Source: an uncultured Peptococcaceae bacterium (GTDB lineage: Bacteria; Bacillota; Peptococcia; Peptococcales; Peptococcaceae). Taken from it: DNA of 15,696 nucleotides. A program made the translations under genes and the position numbers. Every line of letters begins with the position of its first letter. Within the stretch, counting starts at the first letter, position 1. Under the pieces are notes generated by a model. The model saw nothing but the letters and a program-made list of their open reading frames with translations, ran no database searches and had not been told where the DNA came from. Of this stretch, positions 2,350 through 15,696 are shown one piece after another. The stretch covers positions 1 to 15,696 of the forward strand of contig CAMFFG010000006.1 of assembly GCA_945949655.1 (NCBI GenBank), written 5' to 3'.

Positions 2350-4095
2350 TTACACAAAAGCGATAAATACGACCGCCAGCAGGAATACCGTCATGATCAC
2401 GATCATTGGCTCACCGATCACAGCACGATAACTGTCGGCATCATATTTGTCCGGAATTTCCTCGGTATCCTCCATAGCCCGTGGGGCCAGACACAAAAAC
2501 CGCAGCGGGTTCGCCATCAGATAGTTGAAGGTATCATAGATGGAACGGCAGAATTCGCCCAGTGCTGCACGCACAGCGCAAACCAGCGAGGAAATGCTGA
2601 CTACCAGCCCAACAAACGGCTTGCGGTAGAACCAGTCCAGATCCAGCGTCAGCTGTTCGTGCGGTTCCATGTGGGACAGATACATCATAAACGGCACCAT
2701 GGCTACGCCCAGCAACTGAATGTACTGTACGATATGGTCCACGGTAAACGGATGATATTCCATTTCAAATGGCAGGTACTGATACAGCAGATTGGGGAAG
2801 ATCCCGTAAATGGTACACAGTGCTGCACCGATCCCCATAGCCACATACATATTTTTTGGAACTTCCCGCTTGATTTCCACATCCTTGCCTTCCCGCAGGA
2901 AAATGAAGTAGATCATTTTCATTGTGATAGACAGGAAGGTACCGACACTAGCCAGCTGCAGCAACAGCTCGATGGCTGGCTGCCCTGCTTCCATGGCAGC
3001 TGTGATGGTGATGGATTTGCTGATAAAGCCGTTGAACAGCGGGATCCCGGAAATGGAGAAGGCTGCAATGACAAAGCACACAAACACAAACGGCATCTTC
3101 CTGGCCAGACCGCCCAGATGATTGATCTTGCGAATACCGGTTGCATAGATCACAGCGCCAGCACACATAAACAGCAGCGATTTGTACAGAATATGGCTGA
3201 ACGCATGGGCTGTGGCCCCGTTCAGAGCCAGATCGGTGCCAATACCGACACCGGCCACCATGAACCCTACCTGGCTGACAATATGGTAAGCCAGCAGACG
3301 GCGCATGTCGTTTTCAATAATGGCGAAGCAGGCGCCATACAGAGCCATGATAACGCCCATCCACATCAGGAAATCTGTTCCCGCAAAAATACGGATCAGA
3401 CAGTAAACTGCAACCTTTGTGGTGAAGGAACTCAGGAACACACTGCCGGTGATGGTACCTTCCGGATACGCATCTACCAGCCAGCCATGAATTGGCGGAA
3501 TGGCCGCATTTACGGCAACACCGATCAGGATCAGCCAGAAGGCTGCGTCATGAACTGCAGTGATATTGCTTACCAGCATATCCCCGGCGGATACTTTCAG
3601 AAAAATACCGGCTAACAGCATGTTACCGCCAAACATATGAACCAGCAGATAGCGGAAACCGGCTTTTCTGGATTTGGCAGTGTTGTTGCACCAGATCAGG
3701 AACAGGGAAGATGCTGCCATCAGTTCCCAGAAAAAGATCAGGGTCATCCAGTCGCCGCACAGGGTAACGCCCAGCGCGCCACCGGCATAGCACATGCTGG
3801 CCAGCGCTTCCATCCAGCTTTTGTTGTGCATGGAATAGATGCCGCCAATGGTGGCCATCATGCTGAAGATCAGACCAAATACCCAGTTGAGCCGGTCTAC
3901 TTCGATCACATGCAGTTCAATGCCATTGATGAAAGGCACAATCCATTCTGCACCGTAAGATAAAGAGAACATTGCAGCCAGCGCCAGTAATGGACCACCT
4001 GCTAAAATATATTTTCGTACACTTTTGGGAACGATTGCGGCGATGAACCCGGTCGCAATCAGAATCAAACCAGGATGGAACACCATATTATTCAT
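2350..4095 (-). CDS. Third MrpD/NuoL-like proton-conducting antiporter subunit, with C-terminal extension
   Basis: Polytopic membrane protein of the proton-conducting NuoL/M/N-MrpA/D family, probably an ion-translocating subunit of the antiporter complex encoded here. It is 581 residues from the chosen start. The TM5 glutamate (Glu124 in FFWELMA), Lys227 in FTTKVAVY, Lys305 in HILYKSLLF and the TM12 lysine (Lys360 in FNGFISKS) are present. The TM7 lysine found in the two sister subunits is Asn196 here, in AVNAAIPPIHGW. Past residue 460 it has about 120 extra residues with a DLDWFYRKP motif, an acidic loop and one final hydrophobic segment. A longer frame opens at 4161, but GGAGG sits eight bases before the ATG at 4095, which overlaps the upstream stop by 8 bp, so I take 4095. 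Last gene of the operon. Confidence 0.92.
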   Translation of the reverse strand: MNNMVFHPGLILIATGFIAAIVPKSVRKYILAGGPLLALAAMFSLSYGAEWIVPFINGIELHVIEVDRLNWVFGLIFSMMATIGGIYSMHNKSWMEALASMCYAGGALGVTLCGDWMTLIFFWELMAASSLFLIWCNNTAKSRKAGFRYLLVHMFGGNMLLAGIFLKVSAGDMLVSNITAVHDAAFWLILIGVAVNAAIPPIHGWLVDAYPEGTITGSVFLSSFTTKVAVYCLIRIFAGTDFLMWMGVIMALYGACFAIIENDMRRLLAYHIVSQVGFMVAGVGIGTDLALNGATAHAFSHILYKSLLFMCAGAVIYATGIRKINHLGGLARKMPFVFVCFVIAAFSISGIPLFNGFISKSITITAAMEAGQPAIELLLQLASVGTFLSITMKMIYFIFLREGKDVEIKREVPKNMYVAMGIGAALCTIYGIFPNLLYQYLPFEMEYHPFTVDHIVQYIQLLGVAMVPFMMYLSHMEPHEQLTLDLDWFYRKPFVGLVVSISSLVCAVRAALGEFCRSIYDTFNYLMANPLRFLCLAPRAMEDTEEIPDKYDADSYRAVIGEPMIVIMTVFLLAVVFIAFV

Positions 4096-4330
4096 CACCG
4101 TCACCTCCGTCGTAGTAATCTTCGTTCCGCTGCAGCAGCGGTGCCAGAATCTGTTTTGCAAACAGAATCAGAATCCAGCCGCCAACAAAACCCATTATAA
4201 TATCAAAGCCTGGCATCGTGTGCCACAGGTTATGACCATGGGGATGTGCAAACAGAATTTCTGCCACTACAGAAACTGCTACTACAATGGCAATGATGAT
4301 ATAGATTTTCTTTTTATTCAAAGACCGCAT
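4088..4330 (-). CDS. Small His-rich two-helix membrane protein of the antiporter operon
   Basis: 80-residue protein of unknown function. The order is a basic N-terminus (MRSLNKKK), a transmembrane helix (about residues 9-27), a loop with four histidines (AHPHGHNLWH, His29, 31, 33 and 37), a second helix (about 43-62), and a polar tail ending in EDYYDGGDGDE. The basic N-terminus suggests both ends are cytoplasmic with the His loop outside. I do not know a named family for it, though I recall similar small proteins (HPH loop, EDYYD tail) next to MrpD-like genes in other anaerobes. The ATG at 4330 shares one base with the stop of the upstream gene and has GGAGG nine bases before it; an upstream ATG at 4351 lies within that gene and has no such site. 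It is embedded between two antiporter subunits, so it is most likely an accessory subunit. Confidence 0.8.
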   Translation of the reverse strand: MRSLNKKKIYIIIAIVVAVSVVAEILFAHPHGHNLWHTMPGFDIIMGFVGGWILILFAKQILAPLLQRNEDYYDGGDGDE

Positions 4331-5835
4331 CACCAGCCACCTCCAATCCAACCCTGGGTAATGCTCTGCGCAGCCATGGAAGCCAGATCATACAGATGTG
4401 GACCAAAGTTCGGCATGATACCCAGAATTACCGATAACGCTGCTGTCACGCAGATCGGGATCAGCATAAATTTATTGGCTTCACCATAGGTCTGGAATTC
4501 GCCTTTGGTATTTGGCTTAAAGAAGGCCAGATAAGCTACCGGCATCAAGTAGGACAAGCTCAGCAGCGCACTGCAGATCAGAATGGCAATGTAGAACGGC
4601 TGACTTACCTGCAACGCACCCAGCGCCAGGTTCCATTTGCTGATAAAGCCGATGATGAACGGCATCCCTGCAATCCCCAGAGAAGCAATGGTGAAGCAGG
4701 CCATGGTAATCGGCATTTTTCTTCCGATTCCATGCATATCACTGATGTTATCTTTATGCGCCGTTACAATGATCGCCGCGGCACACATAAAGAGGGTGAT
4801 CTTCATTAATGCGTGGGCCACGATATGATAATATGCGCCCAGAATACTCAGTGGAGCCAGTAATGCAGCACCCAGCACCACATAAGACAGCTGACCGACG
4901 GTGGAGAATGCCAGCCGGCGTTTCAGGTTGTCCTGTTTCATCGCAATCAGGGAGGATGCGATGATGGTGAAAGCTGCAAACCAGGCCAGTACTGTTGCAG
5001 CGCCGATCTGACTCAACAGCTGCGGACCGAACACAAAACCGATCAGCCGCAGTACGCAGAAGGCACCGGCTTTTACGACTGCTACTGCGTGCAGCAGCGC
5101 GCTGACAGGTGTCGGCGCAACCATGGCCGATGGCAGCCAGCCATGCAGCGGCATTACACCGGCTTTTACAGCACCGCCCAGCACCATCAGGAAGAACAGC
5201 ATCTGCAGCACCCATTTTGGAGCCATATCGATGGTGAGGAAGCCGCCAGCCTGGAATTCCAGTGTGCCAGCCATCACATATACGGCCACGATACCAGCCA
5301 GCATCAGCTGACCGCTGACTAACGTGTAAATTAAATACTTACGGCCGGAGAACCGCGCTTCTTCGTTTCTTTCGTGGAAAACCAGAGGCCAGGTAGCGAT
5401 GGTCAGCAGCTCATAGAAAATGAAGAAGGTCAGCAGGTTTGCCGATAAAGCGATCCCGATGGCAGCAGACAGACAAACTGCAAATGCTGCATAGAAACCA
5501 GTCTGTTCTTTTTCATGATGACCGCGCATATAGCCAATGGCATAGAAGGAAACCGGAATATACAGGAACGATGATACGCAGGCAAATACCATACCTGCTG
5601 CATCTGTCCGCAGGGTAAAACCAAGAGTGTCTGTTACCTGGAACAAGGTATATTCATATACATTGCCAGCCAGCACAGCCGGTACCATGGAGAAGATCAG
5701 GCCCGCTTTGATGAAAGCGGCTGCCACGCTCCAGAATTCACGCACATTTGGTTTTTTCCCGCTGAACATAATCAGGAAAGCCGCCAGCAGGGATACCCCT
5801 ACCGCCAGAAATGGTCTGATATCAGTAATTGTCAT
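4330..5835 (-). CDS. Second MrpD-like proton-conducting antiporter subunit
   Basis: 501-residue polytopic membrane protein of the NuoL/M/N-MrpA/D family, about 14 predicted helices. All the ionisable residues typical of a working proton channel are in place: Glu142 (FIFYELLTIA), Lys224 before MPLHGWLP, Lys255 (AVVKAGAFCVLR), Lys345 (HALMKITLFM) and Lys400 (GFISKWNLA). It is paralogous to the next gene upstream, with its key residues at almost the same positions, so it may have arisen by duplication, or the two may be the MrpA-N and MrpD equivalents. The ATG overlaps the upstream stop as ATGA, with GGAGG ten bases upstream, which suggests translational coupling. I give no gene symbol because assignment to the mrpA, mrpD or mbhH type needs a tree. 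Confidence 0.93.
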   Translation of the reverse strand: MTITDIRPFLAVGVSLLAAFLIMFSGKKPNVREFWSVAAAFIKAGLIFSMVPAVLAGNVYEYTLFQVTDTLGFTLRTDAAGMVFACVSSFLYIPVSFYAIGYMRGHHEKEQTGFYAAFAVCLSAAIGIALSANLLTFFIFYELLTIATWPLVFHERNEEARFSGRKYLIYTLVSGQLMLAGIVAVYVMAGTLEFQAGGFLTIDMAPKWVLQMLFFLMVLGGAVKAGVMPLHGWLPSAMVAPTPVSALLHAVAVVKAGAFCVLRLIGFVFGPQLLSQIGAATVLAWFAAFTIIASSLIAMKQDNLKRRLAFSTVGQLSYVVLGAALLAPLSILGAYYHIVAHALMKITLFMCAAAIIVTAHKDNISDMHGIGRKMPITMACFTIASLGIAGMPFIIGFISKWNLALGALQVSQPFYIAILICSALLSLSYLMPVAYLAFFKPNTKGEFQTYGEANKFMLIPICVTAALSVILGIMPNFGPHLYDLASMAAQSITQGWIGGGW

Positions 5836-7325
5836 CTTAAGAACACCTCCGGCAATCCTAATTTAATAATTCCATCTACAATCGCTTCGTTGCAGAAGCC
5901 CAGAGCCAGAATGCCAATGCCAAACACGATGATCGGGATCAGCATCTGCAGAGGCAGTTCCAGTTTTCCTGCAGGAGGATTGATTTCTTTCAGACCTGGA
6001 TCTGGATTGATGAATACATTTTCCAGCACCCGGAAGAAATAAACTGCGTTCAGCAAGCTACTGAGTACCAGCACTGCTACATAAATATACTGCTGTGTCT
6101 GCATGGCGCCCAGCATGATATACCATTTGCTGAAGAAACCACCGGTCGGCGGGATCCCGATCATACCAAGTGCAGCCACACACAGTGTGAATACGGTAAA
6201 CGGCATTTTTTTGCCGATCTGACCCAGCTTGCTGATGCGAACTTCGCCAAAACGGTACTGCACGCCGCCGATCACCATAAACAGAGAGCCTTTCATAAAG
6301 GCATGGTTTACAATATGCAGGATGGCACCGATCAGACCATACAGACTGCCGATGGCCAGACCAACTGCAATGTAGCCGATCTGCGCCACACTGGAGTAAG
6401 CCAGCATACGGCGGAAATCGTCCTGTGCAATAGCCATTACCGAACCAAGGATAATGCCAATTGCACCCAAAATACCAATTACGGTCAACCCGTGCTGTAC
6501 AAACAGATGCTGTGCCCCAAACAGATAGAAGAAGAACCGCAGCATTGCATAAGCGGGAACTTTACTCATAGCCCCGGAGATCAGCGGTGCAGCACCAGGA
6601 TGGGAGTAGGTGTAGGAATCCGGCTGCCAGCCATGGAACGGGAACAGAGCCATTTTGATGCCGAATGCGGCGATCAGCAGAGCCAGTGCCATGATGATCA
6701 GCGGAGAATCCATTTTATCCTGCAGCAGAACAGACAGATCCGCCATGTTCAGAGAACCGGTCATGGAATACATAAAACCAATGGCCAGCAGGTATAAGGA
6801 AGCGCCAATGGTACCGATCAGCAGGTAGCGAAACGCTGCCAGAGTACCTTTGTTGCCGCCCAGCGCGATCAGACCATAGCCGGACAGAGAGGCAATTTCC
6901 AGATATACATACAGGTTGAATACGTCGCCTGTCAGGGTCATCCCACTCAAGCCTACGCACAGAAGGGCCATCAGGGTGTAATAACCGCCCATGTACAGCC
7001 AGTTGGATTTTTTCAGAAAAGGTGTGCTGTAGATCGCCGTGCACAGTGCCACAAAGGTGATCATGGTCACGATCACTGCATTGATCGGATCTACAACAAA
7101 TTCAATCCCCAGCGGTGGCATCCAGTTGCCCATCCAGTAATGGATGGTCTGGCCTCCATCGGCTGTTACCTGCAGCAGCAGACCTGCAGAACAGAGGAAT
7201 GCACCAAACAGTGCAGCAATTGCAATCCATTTTCCGGCCTGTTTGTGCATAAGGCTGAAAAACGGACTCAGCAAAGCAGCGGTCAAGGGCAGTAATACAA
7301 TTAAAACAGGAAAATGTTGACTCAT
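5832..7325 (-). CDS. mrpD: MrpD-like Na+(cation)/H+ antiporter subunit
   Basis: 497-residue membrane protein, the subunit directly behind mrpC, as in mrp operons and at the MbhH position of archaeal hydrogenase clusters. Conserved charges of the proton path are Glu143 (YVYLEIASLS), Lys224 (FGIKMALFPFHGW), Lys255 (AMSKVPAYAMLRF), Lys345 (HAFMKGSLFM) and Lys400 (GGFFSKWYIM). The usual MrpD length is about 490-500 residues, which matches. In the family this subunit transports protons and probably the counter-cation across the cytoplasmic membrane. The ATG overlaps the mrpC stop as ATGA, with GAGGAGG eight bases upstream. Confidence 0.95.
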   Translation of the reverse strand: MSQHFPVLIVLLPLTAALLSPFFSLMHKQAGKWIAIAALFGAFLCSAGLLLQVTADGGQTIHYWMGNWMPPLGIEFVVDPINAVIVTMITFVALCTAIYSTPFLKKSNWLYMGGYYTLMALLCVGLSGMTLTGDVFNLYVYLEIASLSGYGLIALGGNKGTLAAFRYLLIGTIGASLYLLAIGFMYSMTGSLNMADLSVLLQDKMDSPLIIMALALLIAAFGIKMALFPFHGWQPDSYTYSHPGAAPLISGAMSKVPAYAMLRFFFYLFGAQHLFVQHGLTVIGILGAIGIILGSVMAIAQDDFRRMLAYSSVAQIGYIAVGLAIGSLYGLIGAILHIVNHAFMKGSLFMVIGGVQYRFGEVRISKLGQIGKKMPFTVFTLCVAALGMIGIPPTGGFFSKWYIMLGAMQTQQYIYVAVLVLSSLLNAVYFFRVLENVFINPDPGLKEINPPAGKLELPLQMLIPIIVFGIGILALGFCNEAIVDGIIKLGLPEVFLR

Positions 7326-7714
7326 TTATCTGCCCTCCTCAATACATCGTCTTCTTCTACTGAGCCGTAGGTTTCTTTAATGCGCATCAGAAGCGCGATG
7401 GCAACCCCAGTAGTACCAAGACTTACTACGATAGCCGTCAGCATCAGGGCATGCGGCAGTGGGTTGATATACAGGTTCGGGTCGGTCGTGATTCCATTCA
7501 GGATCGGAATCATGCCGCCTTCTTTCTGGGCAAAGCACAGATAGAAGAAGATAACCGCAACCTGCATAACGTTCATTGCCATCATTTTTTTCATATAGTT
7601 GTTGCTGACGATCATCCCGTACAGCCCTAAGAACAGTAAAATCAGGACCAGAGAATAGATCCCTTTTGTGGCCAGAAATTGATTGATGACATCCAGTGTA
7701 CTAGCATCACTCAT
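7322..7714 (-). CDS. mrpC: Mrp antiporter subunit C (NuoK-like)
   Basis: 130-residue protein with three hydrophobic helices, homologous to NuoK of complex I. It carries the family signature PLPHALMLTAIVV (about residues 84-96), where most MrpC proteins have Gln instead of His, and an acidic C-terminal tail. The start ATG lies nine bases behind GGAGG and overlaps the end of mrpB by 8 bp. It is a membrane-embedded structural and proton-path subunit next to MrpD. Confidence 0.95.
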   Translation of the reverse strand: MSDASTLDVINQFLATKGIYSLVLILLFLGLYGMIVSNNYMKKMMAMNVMQVAVIFFYLCFAQKEGGMIPILNGITTDPNLYINPLPHALMLTAIVVSLGTTGVAIALLMRIKETYGSVEEDDVLRRADK

Positions 7715-8186
7715 GGTAATCTACCTCCTTATCGTCATCGTCTAAACGTTCAATAATTGCATCCATAATATCGATGATTGTCATCATAACGCATACGGTT
7801 ACGCCGATTTCAATCATCAGAATCCCCAGTGCATGCAGCTCTGCCAGATGCTCCATCGGCACCGGCAGATAGGAATAATCCAGAAACTGTCCGCCGCCAA
7901 ACAGGGTCAGCCAGCCGGTAGCTGCATAGATAAAGGTACCTACGCCAGCACATACAATGGCGATAGGGCCAGGCACATTAAAGCTTTCTTTATCCGCGCC
8001 CTGAATCAGACGCACCAGCACGATCCCCACTGCCAGCAGTGCACCAGCCTGGAAGCCGCCGCCGGGGCTGAATTCCCCATGGGTCAGGATATAGATTCCG
8101 TATACCAGTGTAAAAGGAATGATAATGCGGAAAGAAGAATCCAGAACAATACCACCAAATGGTTTTTTCAATCTGTTATTGCCCAC
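7707..8186 (-). CDS. mrpB: Mrp antiporter subunit B (MnhB family)
   Basis: 159-residue membrane protein with the MnhB-family motif HGEFSPGGGFQAG (residues 36-48). Four hydrophobic segments are visible, followed by an acidic C-terminus (LDDDDKEVDYHE). Translation starts at GTG (8186), eight bases after GGGAGG, and overlaps the end of the upstream gene by 11 bp. It corresponds to MbhF in archaeal hydrogenase clusters. The stand-alone B subunit sits directly behind the two small genes that equal the C-terminal part of MrpA. Confidence 0.95.
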   Translation of the reverse strand: MGNNRLKKPFGGIVLDSSFRIIIPFTLVYGIYILTHGEFSPGGGFQAGALLAVGIVLVRLIQGADKESFNVPGPIAIVCAGVGTFIYAATGWLTLFGGGQFLDYSYLPVPMEHLAELHALGILMIEIGVTVCVMMTIIDIMDAIIERLDDDDKEVDYHE

Positions 8187-8511
8187 GGTTTTCTCCTCCC
8201 TTCTTATTTTTCCGGCCTTTCAGCACCGATTTTCCTTCTTCGGTATTTGCCATCAGGATCAGGCAGGCTGTCAGACCGGACACAAACATTACGGAAGTTT
8301 CCCACAATGTATCAAAGCCTCTGTAGTCGGCCAGAGTCCCGGTAACAATGTTGGGAGACCCGGTATCTTCTGCGCTGTTTTCAATGTAATACGGTGTGAC
8401 ATGCTGGTTCGGTGCCGAGTTGGGATCGCCAATAGGCGGTAAAAATACCGTGCACGCACAGAACAGAACGGTGATGACTGTCATAAGAATGGTTGTTAAT
8501 CCTCTTGCCAT
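8176..8511 (-). CDS. MbhE-like subunit (equivalent of the extreme C-terminus of MrpA)
   Basis: 111-residue protein: an N-terminal helix (about 5-25), an extracytoplasmic segment with YYIENSAEDTGSPNIVTG, YRGFDTLWE, a second helix, and a very basic tail (KGRKNKKGGENRGQ). The IENSAEDTGSPNIVT and RGFDTLWE motifs are those of the MbhE-like domain that forms the C-terminal end of MrpA in Bacillus and exists as a separate subunit in archaeal Mbh complexes. It starts two bases after the upstream stop; its ribosome binding site is weak, so it probably depends on coupling. Confidence 0.88.
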   Translation of the reverse strand: MARGLTTILMTVITVLFCACTVFLPPIGDPNSAPNQHVTPYYIENSAEDTGSPNIVTGTLADYRGFDTLWETSVMFVSGLTACLILMANTEEGKSVLKGRKNKKGGENRGQ

Positions 8512-8513
8512 TG

Positions 8514-8756
8514 TTATTTACACCACCGATCCACTTTTTTCAGCGCTGCAACGAAGAAGATGGTCGACATGGTCCCGATTACCGCTTCTGTAAAAGCAAC
8601 GTCGGGAGAGCCAAACATAAAATAGGTCAGCACAGCGCAAAAACTGAATGCACTGTAAATGATCGTGCAGGCTAAAATATCTTTTGAAATTAAAATGCAG
8701 ACTGTTATGAAAATCAGAAACAGCAGCAGCAACGCTTCAATAATCAATACTTGCAT
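8514..8756 (-). CDS. MbhD-like subunit (DUF4040; part of the MrpA C-terminus)
   Basis: 80-residue protein with three hydrophobic helices and the motif GSPDVAFTEAVIG (about residues 49-61), matching the GxPDxAxTE signature of the MbhD/DUF4040 domain. In Bacillus-type Mrp this domain is fused to the large MrpA subunit; here it is a separate gene, as in archaeal and deltaproteobacterial clusters. The start ATG is two bases behind the mrpG stop, with GGAGG ending inside mrpG. Confidence 0.9.
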   Translation of the reverse strand: MQVLIIEALLLLFLIFITVCILISKDILACTIIYSAFSFCAVLTYFMFGSPDVAFTEAVIGTMSTIFFVAALKKVDRWCK

Positions 8757-8758
8757 GC

Positions 8759-9079
8759 TTATTCCTCCTTATCCTTGTTAGTCCAAACAGGATGACCGGA
8801 TTTCAGAGCAGCTTTCCCCAGGATGTGTGTCCCGATGGGGTTAGCCAGAAATACCAGCAAAAATACAATTACGATCTTTACAGACAGCAGTGTCGGGCCT
8901 TCATAGATCACCAGTCCCAGGCAGGACAGCATCAGCCCTAAGGTTTCACTGTTCCCGGAAGCGTGCAGCCGACTGTAGAAGTCTGGCAGACGGATCATAC
9001 CGATGGCAGAAGCCAGGAAGAAAAATAAACTGCAAACCAGCAGAATAACAGCAATGATCTCATTGATTGCTAAATTCAT
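8759..9079 (-). CDS. mrpG: Mrp antiporter subunit G
   Basis: 106-residue protein of the PhaG/MnhG/YufB family, three helices. The diagnostic motif GMIRLPDFYSRLHASGNSET is at about residues 27-46, followed by a hydrophobic stretch with LVFLANPIGTHILGKAAL. The start overlaps the mrpF stop as ATGA, with GGGAGG nine bases upstream. It is a small structural subunit of the antiporter. Confidence 0.96.
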   Translation of the reverse strand: MNLAINEIIAVILLVCSLFFFLASAIGMIRLPDFYSRLHASGNSETLGLMLSCLGLVIYEGPTLLSVKIVIVFLLVFLANPIGTHILGKAALKSGHPVWTNKDKEE

Positions 9080-9339
9080 ACGTCTTTCCCTCCCATGTAT
9101 TTTGCCACGATTACAGAACAGATAAAGCCTAAAATCGCATACGAAATTGCAATATCCACATACATATCCGGACGTCCGTCAATGTAGCCAAACAACACCA
9201 GAAGCAGGATTGTATCGGCACCGATCACGCCCAGACCATTCATGCGGTCATAAATAGTTGGTCCCTGGAAAACACGTTGGAGCATAAGTCCAATAATAAT
9301 TACTACAGCGACCATCAGAATACCCCAAATAGCATTCAT
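9076..9339 (-). CDS. mrpF: Mrp antiporter subunit F
   Basis: 87-residue protein of the MnhF/PhaF family with three helices. Motifs are FQGPTIYDRMNGLGVIGADT (about 24-43) and YVDIAISYAILGF (60-72), the latter being the conserved core of the family. The ATG shares one base with the mrpE stop. In Mrp complexes subunit F lies beside E and G. Confidence 0.96.
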   Translation of the reverse strand: MNAIWGILMVAVVIIIGLMLQRVFQGPTIYDRMNGLGVIGADTILLLVLFGYIDGRPDMYVDIAISYAILGFICSVIVAKYMGGKDV

Positions 9340-9920
9340 TATTGTTCTTCTCCTTCCTCTACGACTTCGTAGATAAACGGTTCACCAAATAAATCAGCCA
9401 CGCGTTTCTGCATGCCGCCTTCCAGCAAGCCTTCAGCTGCACCGTCAGTCAGCGCATGGATCTCATACAGACCATCCTCTGTTACATTTAAAGTAACTGT
9501 ACCAGGCGTTAATGTAATGGAGTTGGCCAGTGTCGTCAGTGCCATAGGATTGTCCATTTTAATTCTAAAACGGATGATCCGCGGATTGATCACCATTTCA
9601 GATTTTACAGTTGCCTTTACAACGTCGATATTGGCTTTTACCACTTCATTCAGCAGCCAGAGCCAGTACATCGCATATTTGCCCAGATTCACATCAAAAA
9701 TGAAATATTTCTTCGTGCCATCCACATTCGGTAAAAGCAGCAGTGGCACACAGATCCAGGCCGAAACGATGGCTGTCAGGACGCCATAAAACAGAAATTT
9801 GAATTCAAATCTTCCGGACAGTAACAGCCAGAATGCAAACAGCACGCAAGCCAGCACCACCAGATGTTTTACAGGAGAGCCAACAATCGTTTCGTCTTTC
9901 AGCATATCCTTTGTTTTCAA
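9339..9920 (-). CDS. mrpE: Mrp antiporter subunit E, TTG start
   Basis: 193-residue MnhE-family protein, first gene of the operon. The order is a polar N-terminus, two helices (about residues 16-50), a membrane-associated stretch with WLLNEVVKANIDVVKA, then a soluble domain with the family motif LANSITLTPGTVTLNV and an acidic C-terminus. The frame is open from an ATG at 9959. However, AAGGAGG lies eight bases before a TTG at 9920 and none precedes the ATG, so I take TTG as the start. The mrp promoter at 9981-10010 would produce a leader of about 55 nt before this TTG. Confidence 0.93.
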   Translation of the reverse strand: MKTKDMLKDETIVGSPVKHLVVLACVLFAFWLLLSGRFEFKFLFYGVLTAIVSAWICVPLLLLPNVDGTKKYFIFDVNLGKYAMYWLWLLNEVVKANIDVVKATVKSEMVINPRIIRFRIKMDNPMALTTLANSITLTPGTVTLNVTEDGLYEIHALTDGAAEGLLEGGMQKRVADLFGEPFIYEVVEEGEEQ

Positions 9921-9980: not shown

Positions 9981-10010
9981 ATGATACCCGACCAACAGCG
10001 GTATCGTCAA
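9981..10010 (-). promoter_or_regulatory. Promoter of the Mrp operon, with inverted repeat in the spacer
   Basis: On the minus strand there is TTGACG (10005-10010), an 18-bp spacer, and TATCAT (9981-9986), about 60 bp before the mrpE start. The spacer is framed by GATACC and GGTATC (9983-10005), a 6-bp inverted repeat that overlaps both promoter boxes and could be an operator. The binding factor is unknown. Confidence 0.7.
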
Positions 10011-10411: not shown

Positions 10412-10552
10412 ATGACACATATTAAAACAATCAGCGCTCAGAATTTACAGGGTACTGTAAAAAAAGGTGGCTGCGGCGAATGCCAGACATCCTGCCAGTC
10501 CGCTTGCAAAACATCCTGCACAGTTGGTAACCAGGTTTGCAAAAATAACTAA
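10412..10552 (+). CDS. SCIFF precursor peptide (six cysteines in forty-five residues)
   Basis: 46-residue ribosomal peptide. The N-terminus MTHIKTISAQNLQ is the conserved leader, followed by a core with six cysteines at positions 21, 24, 28, 32, 36 and 43 (CGECQTSCQSACKTSC, then TVGNQVC). This matches the SCIFF family closely. In studied members a radical SAM maturase links a core cysteine to a threonine through a thioether; here Thr34 and Thr37 are candidates. The biological role of SCIFF is not known. The gene has GGAGGG eight bases upstream of the ATG, its own strong promoter and its own terminator, so it forms a single-gene unit. The maturase usually found next to it is absent from this window. 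Confidence 0.95.
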   Translation: MTHIKTISAQNLQGTVKKGGCGECQTSCQSACKTSCTVGNQVCKNN

Positions 10553-13758: not shown

Positions 13759-14025
13759 GTCATGCACTTGTCTCCGAATTGAACTTTCCGGACGTTACCC
13801 AGGCAGTTAGCTCGAACCAGGCGCTCCCACGGCACACGCAAGTGCTTACTTATTGCTGCTTCCTTCCGGACCTGACAAGGTTCATAAGTTCGCGTTGCGC
13901 AGGACCCAGCCGTCAACACCACTTACCTGGGGCAGACTCCACAAAGCCAACCCTCGGACAAGCATCAACCCTGCTATAGCGGATTGCAGGTTACAGGGCA
14001 CCGCTACCTCCCCGTCTAGCATGAC
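13759..14025 (-). ncRNA. ffs: Signal recognition particle RNA, large type with Alu domain
   Basis: RNA component of the SRP, about 267 nt, which with Ffh targets membrane proteins co-translationally. The conserved Ffh-binding hairpin, containing GTCAGGTCCGGAAGGAAGCA on the minus strand, is at 13850-13876. The 5' half carries the Alu-domain signature GGGGAGGTAGCGGTGCCCTG and the GTAAGTGGTGTTGACGGCTG segment of Bacillus-type scRNA. The two ends are complementary: GTCATGC at 14019-14025 pairs with GCATGAC at 13759-13765, which fixes the ends. The 3' end is followed by TTTTTT. This long form occurs in many Bacilli and Clostridia, unlike the short 4.5S RNA of Proteobacteria. Confidence 0.97.
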
Positions 14026-14796: not shown

Positions 14797-15696
14797 TCAG
14801 GAGCGACAGTAATGTTTGCGCCGTACCAGAAGATAACACAAAGGCACCAGATACAAAAATACACTATAAGGCAACGCTCCGACCCCTACATGCATCACCG
14901 AGAGAGGTACTGCACAGGCAATAGACCAGGGAACCAGAGCAGCAATGGTAACTACCGAATTATTTAAATCGGCAGCCAACTCTTCCTGAGGCAGATCATG
15001 CTGTCGATACAGATTGGAAGTCATCTGCGTGATCAATGTGATTCCTATGGTCTGATTGCAGAACACACAGCTCAAAAACAGGGACAACAGTATCTGCGAT
15101 GGAAAAATATGCAGTCGTTCAAACATGTGATCCAGATAACGCTGCAACGGCTGCAGCATATTGGTGCCCTGAAAAATTCCCGCACATCCATTGGCCAGTG
15201 CAATGATAAAAATCACATTCAGCATGGAGACCACGCCACCGCCGGAAAAAATATTTTTTAGCGCCGGCGCACTGGCCTGATAGCCAACAACACAGTCTGC
15301 CAGCGCCGTCAACAGGCTCTGTTGCTGCGCGCTCACCGTCAGCAGAAAAGCGGCTGCTCCACTTACCAGGATCACATGAACGATCCGTACCCGGCACAGC
15401 GGCAGTATCACCAGCAGAACGGCGGGAATCATCACCGGCCATCCCAGATAAAAGCTGTCCTGTAAAGCTGCCACCACATTGGCATCTATGTTCTGGATCG
15501 GATTCTGCCAGGACATAACTGCATAAATCAATGTTGTCAGGCCCAGTGGCAACAACCCTATCTTAAAAGAAGTTTTCAGAAACCGGTTATGCTCCACACC
15601 AGTGACGGCAGAAATCAGCAATGCTGCAGAGGATAAGGGAGAACACCGTTCACCGAAAAAGGCACCAGACATAACCGCTCCCGCTGTCATCAGCAC
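14797..15696 (-). CDS. NhaC-family Na+/H+ antiporter, N-terminus beyond the right edge
   Basis: The C-terminal 299 residues of a polytopic membrane protein; the frame is open to the right edge, so the real start lies outside. The motif GAFFGERCSPLSSAALL near the visible start matches the GxxFGDxxSPLSDT signature of NhaC-type antiporters, and about eight hydrophobic helices follow, with FCNQTIGITL and NNSVVTIAALVPWSIAC typical of the later part of the family. NhaC proteins are about 450-480 residues, so some 150-180 residues are missing. They exchange Na+ for H+ across the cytoplasmic membrane; some relatives exchange organic acids such as malate/lactate instead, and this cannot be ruled out. 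The stop lies 93 bp before the next gene start, with no clear terminator between. Confidence 0.88.
   Translation of the reverse strand: MLMTAGAVMSGAFFGERCSPLSSAALLISAVTGVEHNRFLKTSFKIGLLPLGLTTLIYAVMSWQNPIQNIDANVVAALQDSFYLGWPVMIPAVLLVILPLCRVRIVHVILVSGAAAFLLTVSAQQQSLLTALADCVVGYQASAPALKNIFSGGGVVSMLNVIFIIALANGCAGIFQGTNMLQPLQRYLDHMFERLHIFPSQILLSLFLSCVFCNQTIGITLITQMTSNLYRQHDLPQEELAADLNNSVVTIAALVPWSIACAVPLSVMHVGVGALPYSVFLYLVPLCYLLVRRKHYCRS

Follow-up and report, generated by a model that had tools for sequence, protein, structure and literature searches.

A probable stand-alone Mrp-type antiporter operon with a divided MrpA in an uncultured Peptococcaceae bacterium

The DNA analysed here (the window) is a stretch of 15,696 nucleotides, contig C6 (CAMFFG010000006.1) of a 1.55 Mb metagenome-assembled genome (MAG), 68% complete, from an uncultured Peptococcaceae bacterium. 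Eleven genes related to multisubunit Mrp antiporters, all on the minus strand, run from 9920 to 2350 in the order E-F-G-MbhD-MbhE-B-C-D1-D2-x-D3, where D1, D2 and D3 denote large antiporter-like subunits and x a tiny protein. Neighbouring genes of this block overlap by 1-11 bases or lie 2 bases apart, and Pfam names ten of the eleven above curated cut-offs (MNHE, MrpF_PhaF, PhaG_MnhG_YufB, MbhD, MbhE, MnhB, Oxidored_q2 and three times Proton_antipo_M). These family matches bear out the order and coordinates (2350..9920) of the original prediction, in which E-F-G-(MbhD)-(MbhE)-B-C-D was followed by two more large subunits with a tiny protein between them, and the A-to-H order of archaeal Mbh that it recognised agrees with Table 2 of PMC8415708. 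Its remark that no fused MrpA is present holds for the genes, but recognisable parts of MrpA are encoded as separate genes.

The block begins with MrpE/MbhA (9339..9920, 193 aa; PF01899, 101.7 bits), which has a TTG start with AAGGAGGTG upstream, and continues with MrpF/MbhB (9076..9339, 87 aa; PF04066, 52.2 bits) and MrpG/MbhC (8759..9079, 106 aa; PF03334, 85.5 bits; TIGR01300, 86.8 bits with a cut-off of 63.1). MbhD (8514..8756, 80 aa; PF13244, 57.4 bits) is the counterpart of the beginning of the MrpA C-terminal domain and MbhE (8176..8511, 111 aa; PF20501, 33.3 bits) that of its end. They are followed by MrpB/MbhF (7707..8186, 159 aa, GTG start; PF04039, 94 bits), which matches 6u8y_E, 6cfw_F, 6z16_B and 7qru_B, and by MrpC/MbhG (7322..7714, 130 aa; PF00420, 64.1 bits). 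D1 (5832..7325, 497 aa; PF00361, 197.1 bits) is an MrpD/MbhH-like large subunit whose best PDB matches are MbsH, MbhH and MrpD, while D2 (4330..5835, 501 aa; PF00361, 198.4 bits) carries a histidine of the MrpA/NuoL type, His249, in transmembrane helix 8 (TM8). The protein x (4088..4330, 80 aa) appears to be a two-helix membrane protein and has no Pfam match, and D3 (2350..4095, 581 aa; NF009310, 656 bits with a cut-off of 564) is a large subunit with a predicted lateral helix and an extra TM helix. The overlap is 1 base between D2 and x and 8 bases between x and D3, and GGAGG precedes the start codon of each of the three. The start of x is most likely the ATG at 4330 (80 aa) rather than the longest open reading frame (ORF) start at 4351 (87 aa), and that of D3 most likely the ATG at 4095 rather than the TTG at 4161.

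Beyond the 3′ end of the block lies a terminator-like hairpin on the minus strand (2321 to 2288) with a 15-pair stem and a T-rich tail; this is the longest stem among the 27 terminator-like sites in the scan (14.5 expected from shuffles). The next gene downstream, beyond the hairpin, is glpK. A weak promoter-like site on the same strand lies upstream of E (9981..10010, 10/12 consensus matches), and such sites are not enriched, with 19 in the scan vs 21.7 in shuffles. Family scans within the window found no hydrogenase, Fe-S or NADH-binding genes and no nuo redox genes or NuoM/N, in keeping with the original description of a block without a redox module.

To place the block among its relatives, GTDB contigs were scanned with D3, and the best 80 of at least 554 confirmed loci were kept. 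Because these 80 named loci were picked through D3, counts in them describe D3 neighbourhoods, not Mrp generally; genes were called with profiles made from the window genes and the kept loci. Among the kept loci the nearest named relative is Peptococcaceae bacterium UBA7185, with 93% identity in D3. The complete eleven-gene block is present in 41 of the 80 (in 38 it stands alone on its strand, in 3 it is surrounded by other large-subunit genes), which answers the call of the original prediction for a survey of the same gene order, and 10 more hold small variants with order swaps, a fusion or no detected mbhE. In another 13, other large subunits come after D2-x-D3, or this arrangement is present in cut form; nuo genes were found beside 11 of these and none at L072 and L079; the remaining 16 are cut by contig ends or otherwise partial. 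Hosts of the full or slightly changed block include, within Bacillota, Peptococcaceae, Phascolarctobacterium and Selenomonadaceae, and beyond it Balneolota, Ignavibacteriota, Nitrospirota, Nitrospinota, Acidobacteriota, Chloroflexi, Myxococcota and an Altiarchaeales archaeon. A protein search with D3 scored 7998 candidates, of which 7309 reached E 0.001, a number that will include other antiporter-like subunits; the best 120 matches listed are at least 59% identical to D3. Within the window's class (46 genomes, its own included), D3 was found in 25 genomes at E 1e-120 or better, 24 of them above the curated cut-off, and fused MrpA in 3 at E 1e-150 or better, with no genome holding both. The fused-MrpA loci of that class, taken as a contrast set (G019, G021, G025), follow the order A-B-C-D-E-F-G, and no fused MrpA (TIGR00940, E 1e-150 or better) was found in the window's own genome or in seven genomes of the same genus, several of them incomplete. 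The split-MrpA block is not rare.

A tree of the large subunits was built from 104 rows, drawn from the window, from 20 loci of Mrp type and 6 of complex I type among the 80, and from 29 reference rows that include a single rhizobial green complex I and a single haloarchaeal operon; it was made by a quick method and contains several long branches. D1, D2 and D3 each fall into one clade (support 97, 100 and 100), the D1 clade stands next to MrpD (82) and MrpA lies beside NuoL (98). The tree, of the kind called for in the original prediction, separates the three large subunits, which are intact, into three clades. Ratios of nonsynonymous to synonymous change are low (dN/dS 0.006-0.14 across the eleven genes in comparison with three relatives, with dS about 1 or above in most comparisons). 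That the extra large subunits are degenerate copies, which the original prediction had named as a refutation, is rejected on low dN/dS and residue conservation. Within the tree, the complex-I-type D2 sequences form a nested group of seven rows (support 91), joined with Nitrospirae locus L078 at 98, and the complex-I-type D3 sequences likewise a nested group of seven rows (98). Since these copies are nested among Mrp-type ones, the seven complex-I rows, all found through D3, suggest that green complex I received the D2-x-D3 cassette from a stand-alone Mrp.

Residues were counted in the 80 named loci plus L104, L108 and L113, with one copy per locus, large subunits of at least 400 bits and 16 other G loci left out as likely duplicates; B. 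pseudofirmus Mrp residue numbers follow PMC9568556. D1 holds Glu143, Lys224, Lys255 and Lys400 in 57 of 57 loci. D2 holds Lys224, His249, Lys255, His341, Lys345 and Lys400 in all 74 loci and Glu142 in 72 (2 gaps). His249 occupies the position of MrpA H248 and NuoL H254, and in the alignment of the tree rows this TM8 column is filled by histidine in D2, MrpA and NuoL and is a gap in D1, D3, MrpD, NuoM and NuoN; PMC4938563 is concerned with helix VIII residues whose conservation is confined to MrpA and NuoL.

D3 departs from this pattern at TM7, where Asn196 stands at the lysine position in all 83 loci, as well as in the green complex I copy, the haloarchaeal copy and all 120 of the best D3 homologues listed. 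In the tree-row alignment the TM7 lysine is present in the D1, D2, MrpA, MrpD, NuoL and NuoN rows. With its Lys/Glu pair altered in this way, D3 would probably pump little or nothing itself, and the up to three ion channels of the original prediction become doubtful. For D3 to pump nonetheless, so that the complex would have three working proton channels and an H+ per ion ratio above that of classical Mrp, the proton would have to pass by way of Lys227, Lys305 and Lys360 with Asn196 replacing the lysine. Such a route would fit the retention of Glu124 and Lys360 in 83 and of Lys227 and Lys305 in 82 of the 83 D3 loci, and a B. subtilis MrpA K196A mutant still grew at high salt (PMC4938563). The TM7 lysine has exceptions outside D3 too, as the NuoM rows, those of the window's class among them, hold leucine at this position in 4 of 6 cases and lysine in 2. 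However, PMC4938563 describes the lysine as universally conserved and PMC9568556 the Lys/Glu pair as strictly conserved, the asparagine is fixed across every D3 copy counted, and the TM11 histidine is also lost in 20 of 83 D3 loci (retained in 63, with Asp in 11 and Asn in 9). A third working channel is therefore considered unlikely, and D3 is treated below as a probable non-pumping subunit. Its model contains a 42-residue helix (487-528) followed by a last TM helix (561-580), and the best Foldseek match of the model is MrpA, 7qru_A.

Between D2 and D3, x is a conserved two-helix membrane subunit, as judged from sequence and prediction, without a family name. It precedes D3 in 78 of the 80 named loci; the two exceptions are L082 and L092, where the D3 match starts 9 and 47 bases away from the end of the locus. 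The distance between the end of the x match and the start of the D3 match is at most 52 bases in 75 of the 78, and 187-287 bases in L071, L075 and L079. Across 99 scanned loci, a search with the window sequence by itself (E 1e-4) recovered 92 ORFs and the final profile 98; the profile search in proteins gave 5109 at E 0.001, and of the 120 relatives listed few are named (hypothetical protein, one efflux protein). The majority pattern of 43 aligned copies reads W...PGFD..FGF.GC..LI...K..G...LQR.EDYYD, with W36, G47, K59, E70 and Y72 in at least 90% of them and Y73 in all, and helices are predicted at 6-27 and 42-66 (mean pLDDT 84.5). The window x matched no Pfam family above cut-off and none at E 0.001, no PDB sequence and no NCBIfam model above cut-off. 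Weak resemblances of x to TssN (8 of 43 members, best E 4e-4) and to MAG0110 (E 0.002, 17 bits vs a cut-off of 98) were judged hydrophobic noise, and a profile comparison of x with fused MrpA yielded no credible match (probability 0.2%). No x was found in three of three haloarchaeal D3 loci, even unfiltered (best E 1.2). Since D2 of the haloarchaeal locus L120 is about 120 residues longer, a fusion of x to D2 was considered there and rejected, the x profile giving nothing in the three loci. In L071 (9424-10008) and L075 (6929-7456) the x frame continues for about 95 codons past the x match before D3 is reached, and the tail in L075 resembles a lipoyl-type domain by eye.

Whether the complex works alone or docks onto a redox module encoded elsewhere, as the original prediction had left possible, was approached through the genomes of the genus. 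None of the six genus genomes searched (68% complete for the window's own, 93, 82, 96, 99 and 76% for the others) gave a match to PF00146, the anchor family of NuoH and MbhM, which makes a redox partner elsewhere unlikely; one of three further genomes of the family (G012) did. Of the primary Na+ pumps looked for, Rnf/Nqr (PF02508) was found in none of eight genomes, three of them from other genera of the family, and the oxaloacetate decarboxylase beta subunit (PF03977) in none of five. All three PF00361 proteins of the window's own genome are in this block; that genome being incomplete, the argument leans on the relatives that are 93, 96 and 99% complete. As PF00146, Rnf/Nqr and the decarboxylase subunit were not found, the complex is, from its gene content, most likely stand-alone in this genus. 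What favours docking comes from other taxa: a D2-x-D3 cassette lies within the complex I operon of Rhizobium lentis, and L066 and L067 hold the entire Mrp block between their nuoM and nuoN genes. Docking is regarded as very unlikely here.

L066 (3-13234) has the eleven-gene block inside a same-strand nuo cluster (nuoJ-K-L-M-[E..D3]-nuoN), L067 (3-13312) has nuoL-M, a 1.4 kb gap, the whole block and nuoN on the same strand, and L069 (3-11746) has nuoJ-K-L-M and then the whole block on the same strand, with nuoN not found. An Mrp arm joined to complex I would fit such an arrangement. Of 61 genomes sampled from the class of L066, only 3 have D3, those of L066, L067 and L056, and no nuo genes were seen near D3 in L056. 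In two Clostridia or Bacillota MAGs (L047, 13744-16118; L055, 4775-7131), homologues of NuoE and NuoF lie 2-3 kb behind the Mrp operon.

For the ion path, MbhD retains D52 and E57 in 52 of 52 loci and MbhE retains D62 in 45 and D67 and E71 in all of 46; the three MbhE residues line up by eye with MrpA D771, D776 and E780. In two genomes the c subunit of the F-type ATP synthase reads MEALTIYG (L136, 1486-1707; L137, 1483-1707) and lacks the serine of the Na+ signature; the two synthases are probably proton-coupled, and this fits a proton-driven antiporter.

We consider it probable that the block encodes a stand-alone Mrp-type (CPA3, group 3) cation/proton antiporter in which MrpA is divided and D3 forms a distal cap. 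This reading draws on the genes, their order, their conservation and the residues observed in them, and on a predicted helix in D3; for arrangement, ion, direction and stoichiometry, and for the roles of D3 and x, we infer the following. The membrane order would be D3 - D2 - D1 - C - MbhD/MbhE - B/F/G/E. Protons would enter via D2 and D1, both of which hold a complete set of pumping residues, and their entry would drive Na+ (or K+) out of the cell at the end formed by MbhD/E-B-E/F/G. The features of MrpA would be shared out, with D2 supplying the MrpA/NuoL-type histidine and MbhD and MbhE the C-terminal part, while D3 would bear a lateral helix that clamps the arm and x would sit where D2 meets D3. 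More tentatively, and at somewhat less than an even chance, D2-x-D3 may be an ancient exchangeable distal module, with D2 pumping through a histidine switch, D3 as a non-pumping cap with the lateral helix and x as an undescribed linking subunit obligatory outside haloarchaea; stand-alone Mrp operons that carry the module would then be a fourth Mrp type and its source in green complex I.

Several observations weigh against the main reading, that of a stand-alone antiporter with a divided MrpA. The tree does not settle how D2 and D3 relate to MrpA, the lateral helix of D3 is modelled at a pLDDT of 48-78 only, D1 and D2 are taken to be without such a helix from their length, and x is placed at the D2/D3 contact from gene order as the sole basis. 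Two residues of the Na+ path proposed in PMC9568556 are, by eye, not found at their expected positions. MrpA Glu687 falls by eye on Gly61 of MbhD, a position that is Gly in 50 of 52 loci, with the invariant Glu57 four residues earlier. MrpF Asp38 falls, by eye via the 6z16_F alignment, on Gly37, which is Gly in 32 of 52 loci; roughly a helical turn further along lies Asp42 (Asp in 31 of 52 loci, Lys in 14). PMC8415708 reports that the Na+ homeostasis systems of P. furiosus do not include its stand-alone Mrp, so that pH or another ion may be the role of this type, and no activity report for this Mrp type was found in the literature covered. That the same antiporter serves K+, Ca2+ or pH control instead of Na+ export is accordingly entertained, as a somewhat unlikely alternative. 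The shift or replacement of the two Na+ path residues would suit it, PMC5703873 reports Mrp complexes that transport K+ or Ca2+, and the window encodes a separate NhaC-like antiporter at 15696-14797. However, the MbhE acidic residues aligned with the proposed Na+ exit are kept.

Outside the block, the window holds a six-cysteine ranthipeptide SCIFF gene on the plus strand (10412-10552; TIGR03973, 81.7 bits with a cut-off of 50) and, on the minus strand, a bacterial large SRP RNA (13760-14024; RF01854, 215 bits). The antiporter gene just mentioned, also on the minus strand (14797-15696), is NhaC/ArcD-like by PF03553, scores below NCBIfam cut-offs and is cut by the contig end.

Pumping by antiporter-like subunits and coupling via the lateral helix are both disputed in complex I and Mrp. 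With the TM8 histidine and the lateral helix on different proteins, and the TM7 lysine lost from the bearer of the helix, a widespread natural complex of this kind would let both functions be tested apart. Annotators gain a small membrane protein, x, which has relatives by the thousand and matches no Pfam or NCBIfam family above cut-off. The operon itself is ordinary and holds a specific mechanistic question. As the original prediction had suspected, similar clusters are known: group 3 Mrp without MrpA (PMC8415708), a Nitrospira with additional large-subunit genes after mrpD (PMC7784846) and green complex I with its pair of MrpD-like subunits (PMC9040806) are already published, and D3 already has an NCBI family model, NF009310. 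In the open-licence literature covered, x, the fixed D3 asparagine and a sharing of MrpA features by D2 and D3 were not found, which is weak evidence that these are new; on gut taxa, the papers listed were microbiome surveys only.

Among known systems, the block falls by gene content into group 3 Mrp, as it has no mrpA gene and at least one mrpD together with E, F, G, B and C in an irregular order (PMC8415708, PMC5703873). The P. furiosus group 3 Mrp (PF1147-53, mrpEFGBB′CD; PMC8415708) likewise places E-F-G first in Mbh order and has neither MrpA nor redox genes, but it has one large subunit vs three here, and MbhD and MbhE are separate genes here; its gene list in the part covered contains no D2-x-D3. 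Ca. Nitrospira alkalitolerans, compared by description only (PMC7784846), also carries two extra NuoM/L-like genes directly after mrpD, whereas x, the asparagine and the division of MrpA are not described in the part covered. The haloarchaeal plasmid Mrp (annotated in L120 and L141, partly in L142) shares the order E-F-G-DUF4040-B-C-D1-D2-D3 and, in L120, the D3 asparagine, but mbhD and mbhE are fused in L120 and x was not found in any of the three loci. In rhizobial green complex I and in Ca. Manganitrophaceae Complex_I_3, the latter compared by description (PMC9040806), two MrpD-like subunits replace NuoL; these complexes have a nuoA-G redox arm and NuoM/N where the block has E/F/G/B/C. In complex I of Rhizobium lentis the D2-x-D3 cassette occupies NuoL's place, so that the window shares the cassette of green complex I without its nuo redox genes or NuoM/N. 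A complex I with a fourth pump was reportedly described by Chadwick in 2018. The P. furiosus MBH (6cfw; gene table in PMC8415708) has the A-to-H membrane module in the same order, as in MBH/MBS complexes generally, while the block has two more large subunits and x, and no hydrogenase-like redox module with the MbhM/NuoH anchor was found in the window. The B. pseudofirmus group 1 Mrp (7qru; PMC9568556) is built from the same subunit families, and the parts of its MrpA are recognisable here; unlike the fused MrpA and A-B-C-D-E-F-G order of group 1 and 2 Mrp, with two large subunits in B. pseudofirmus, the block has separate genes, E first and three large subunits.

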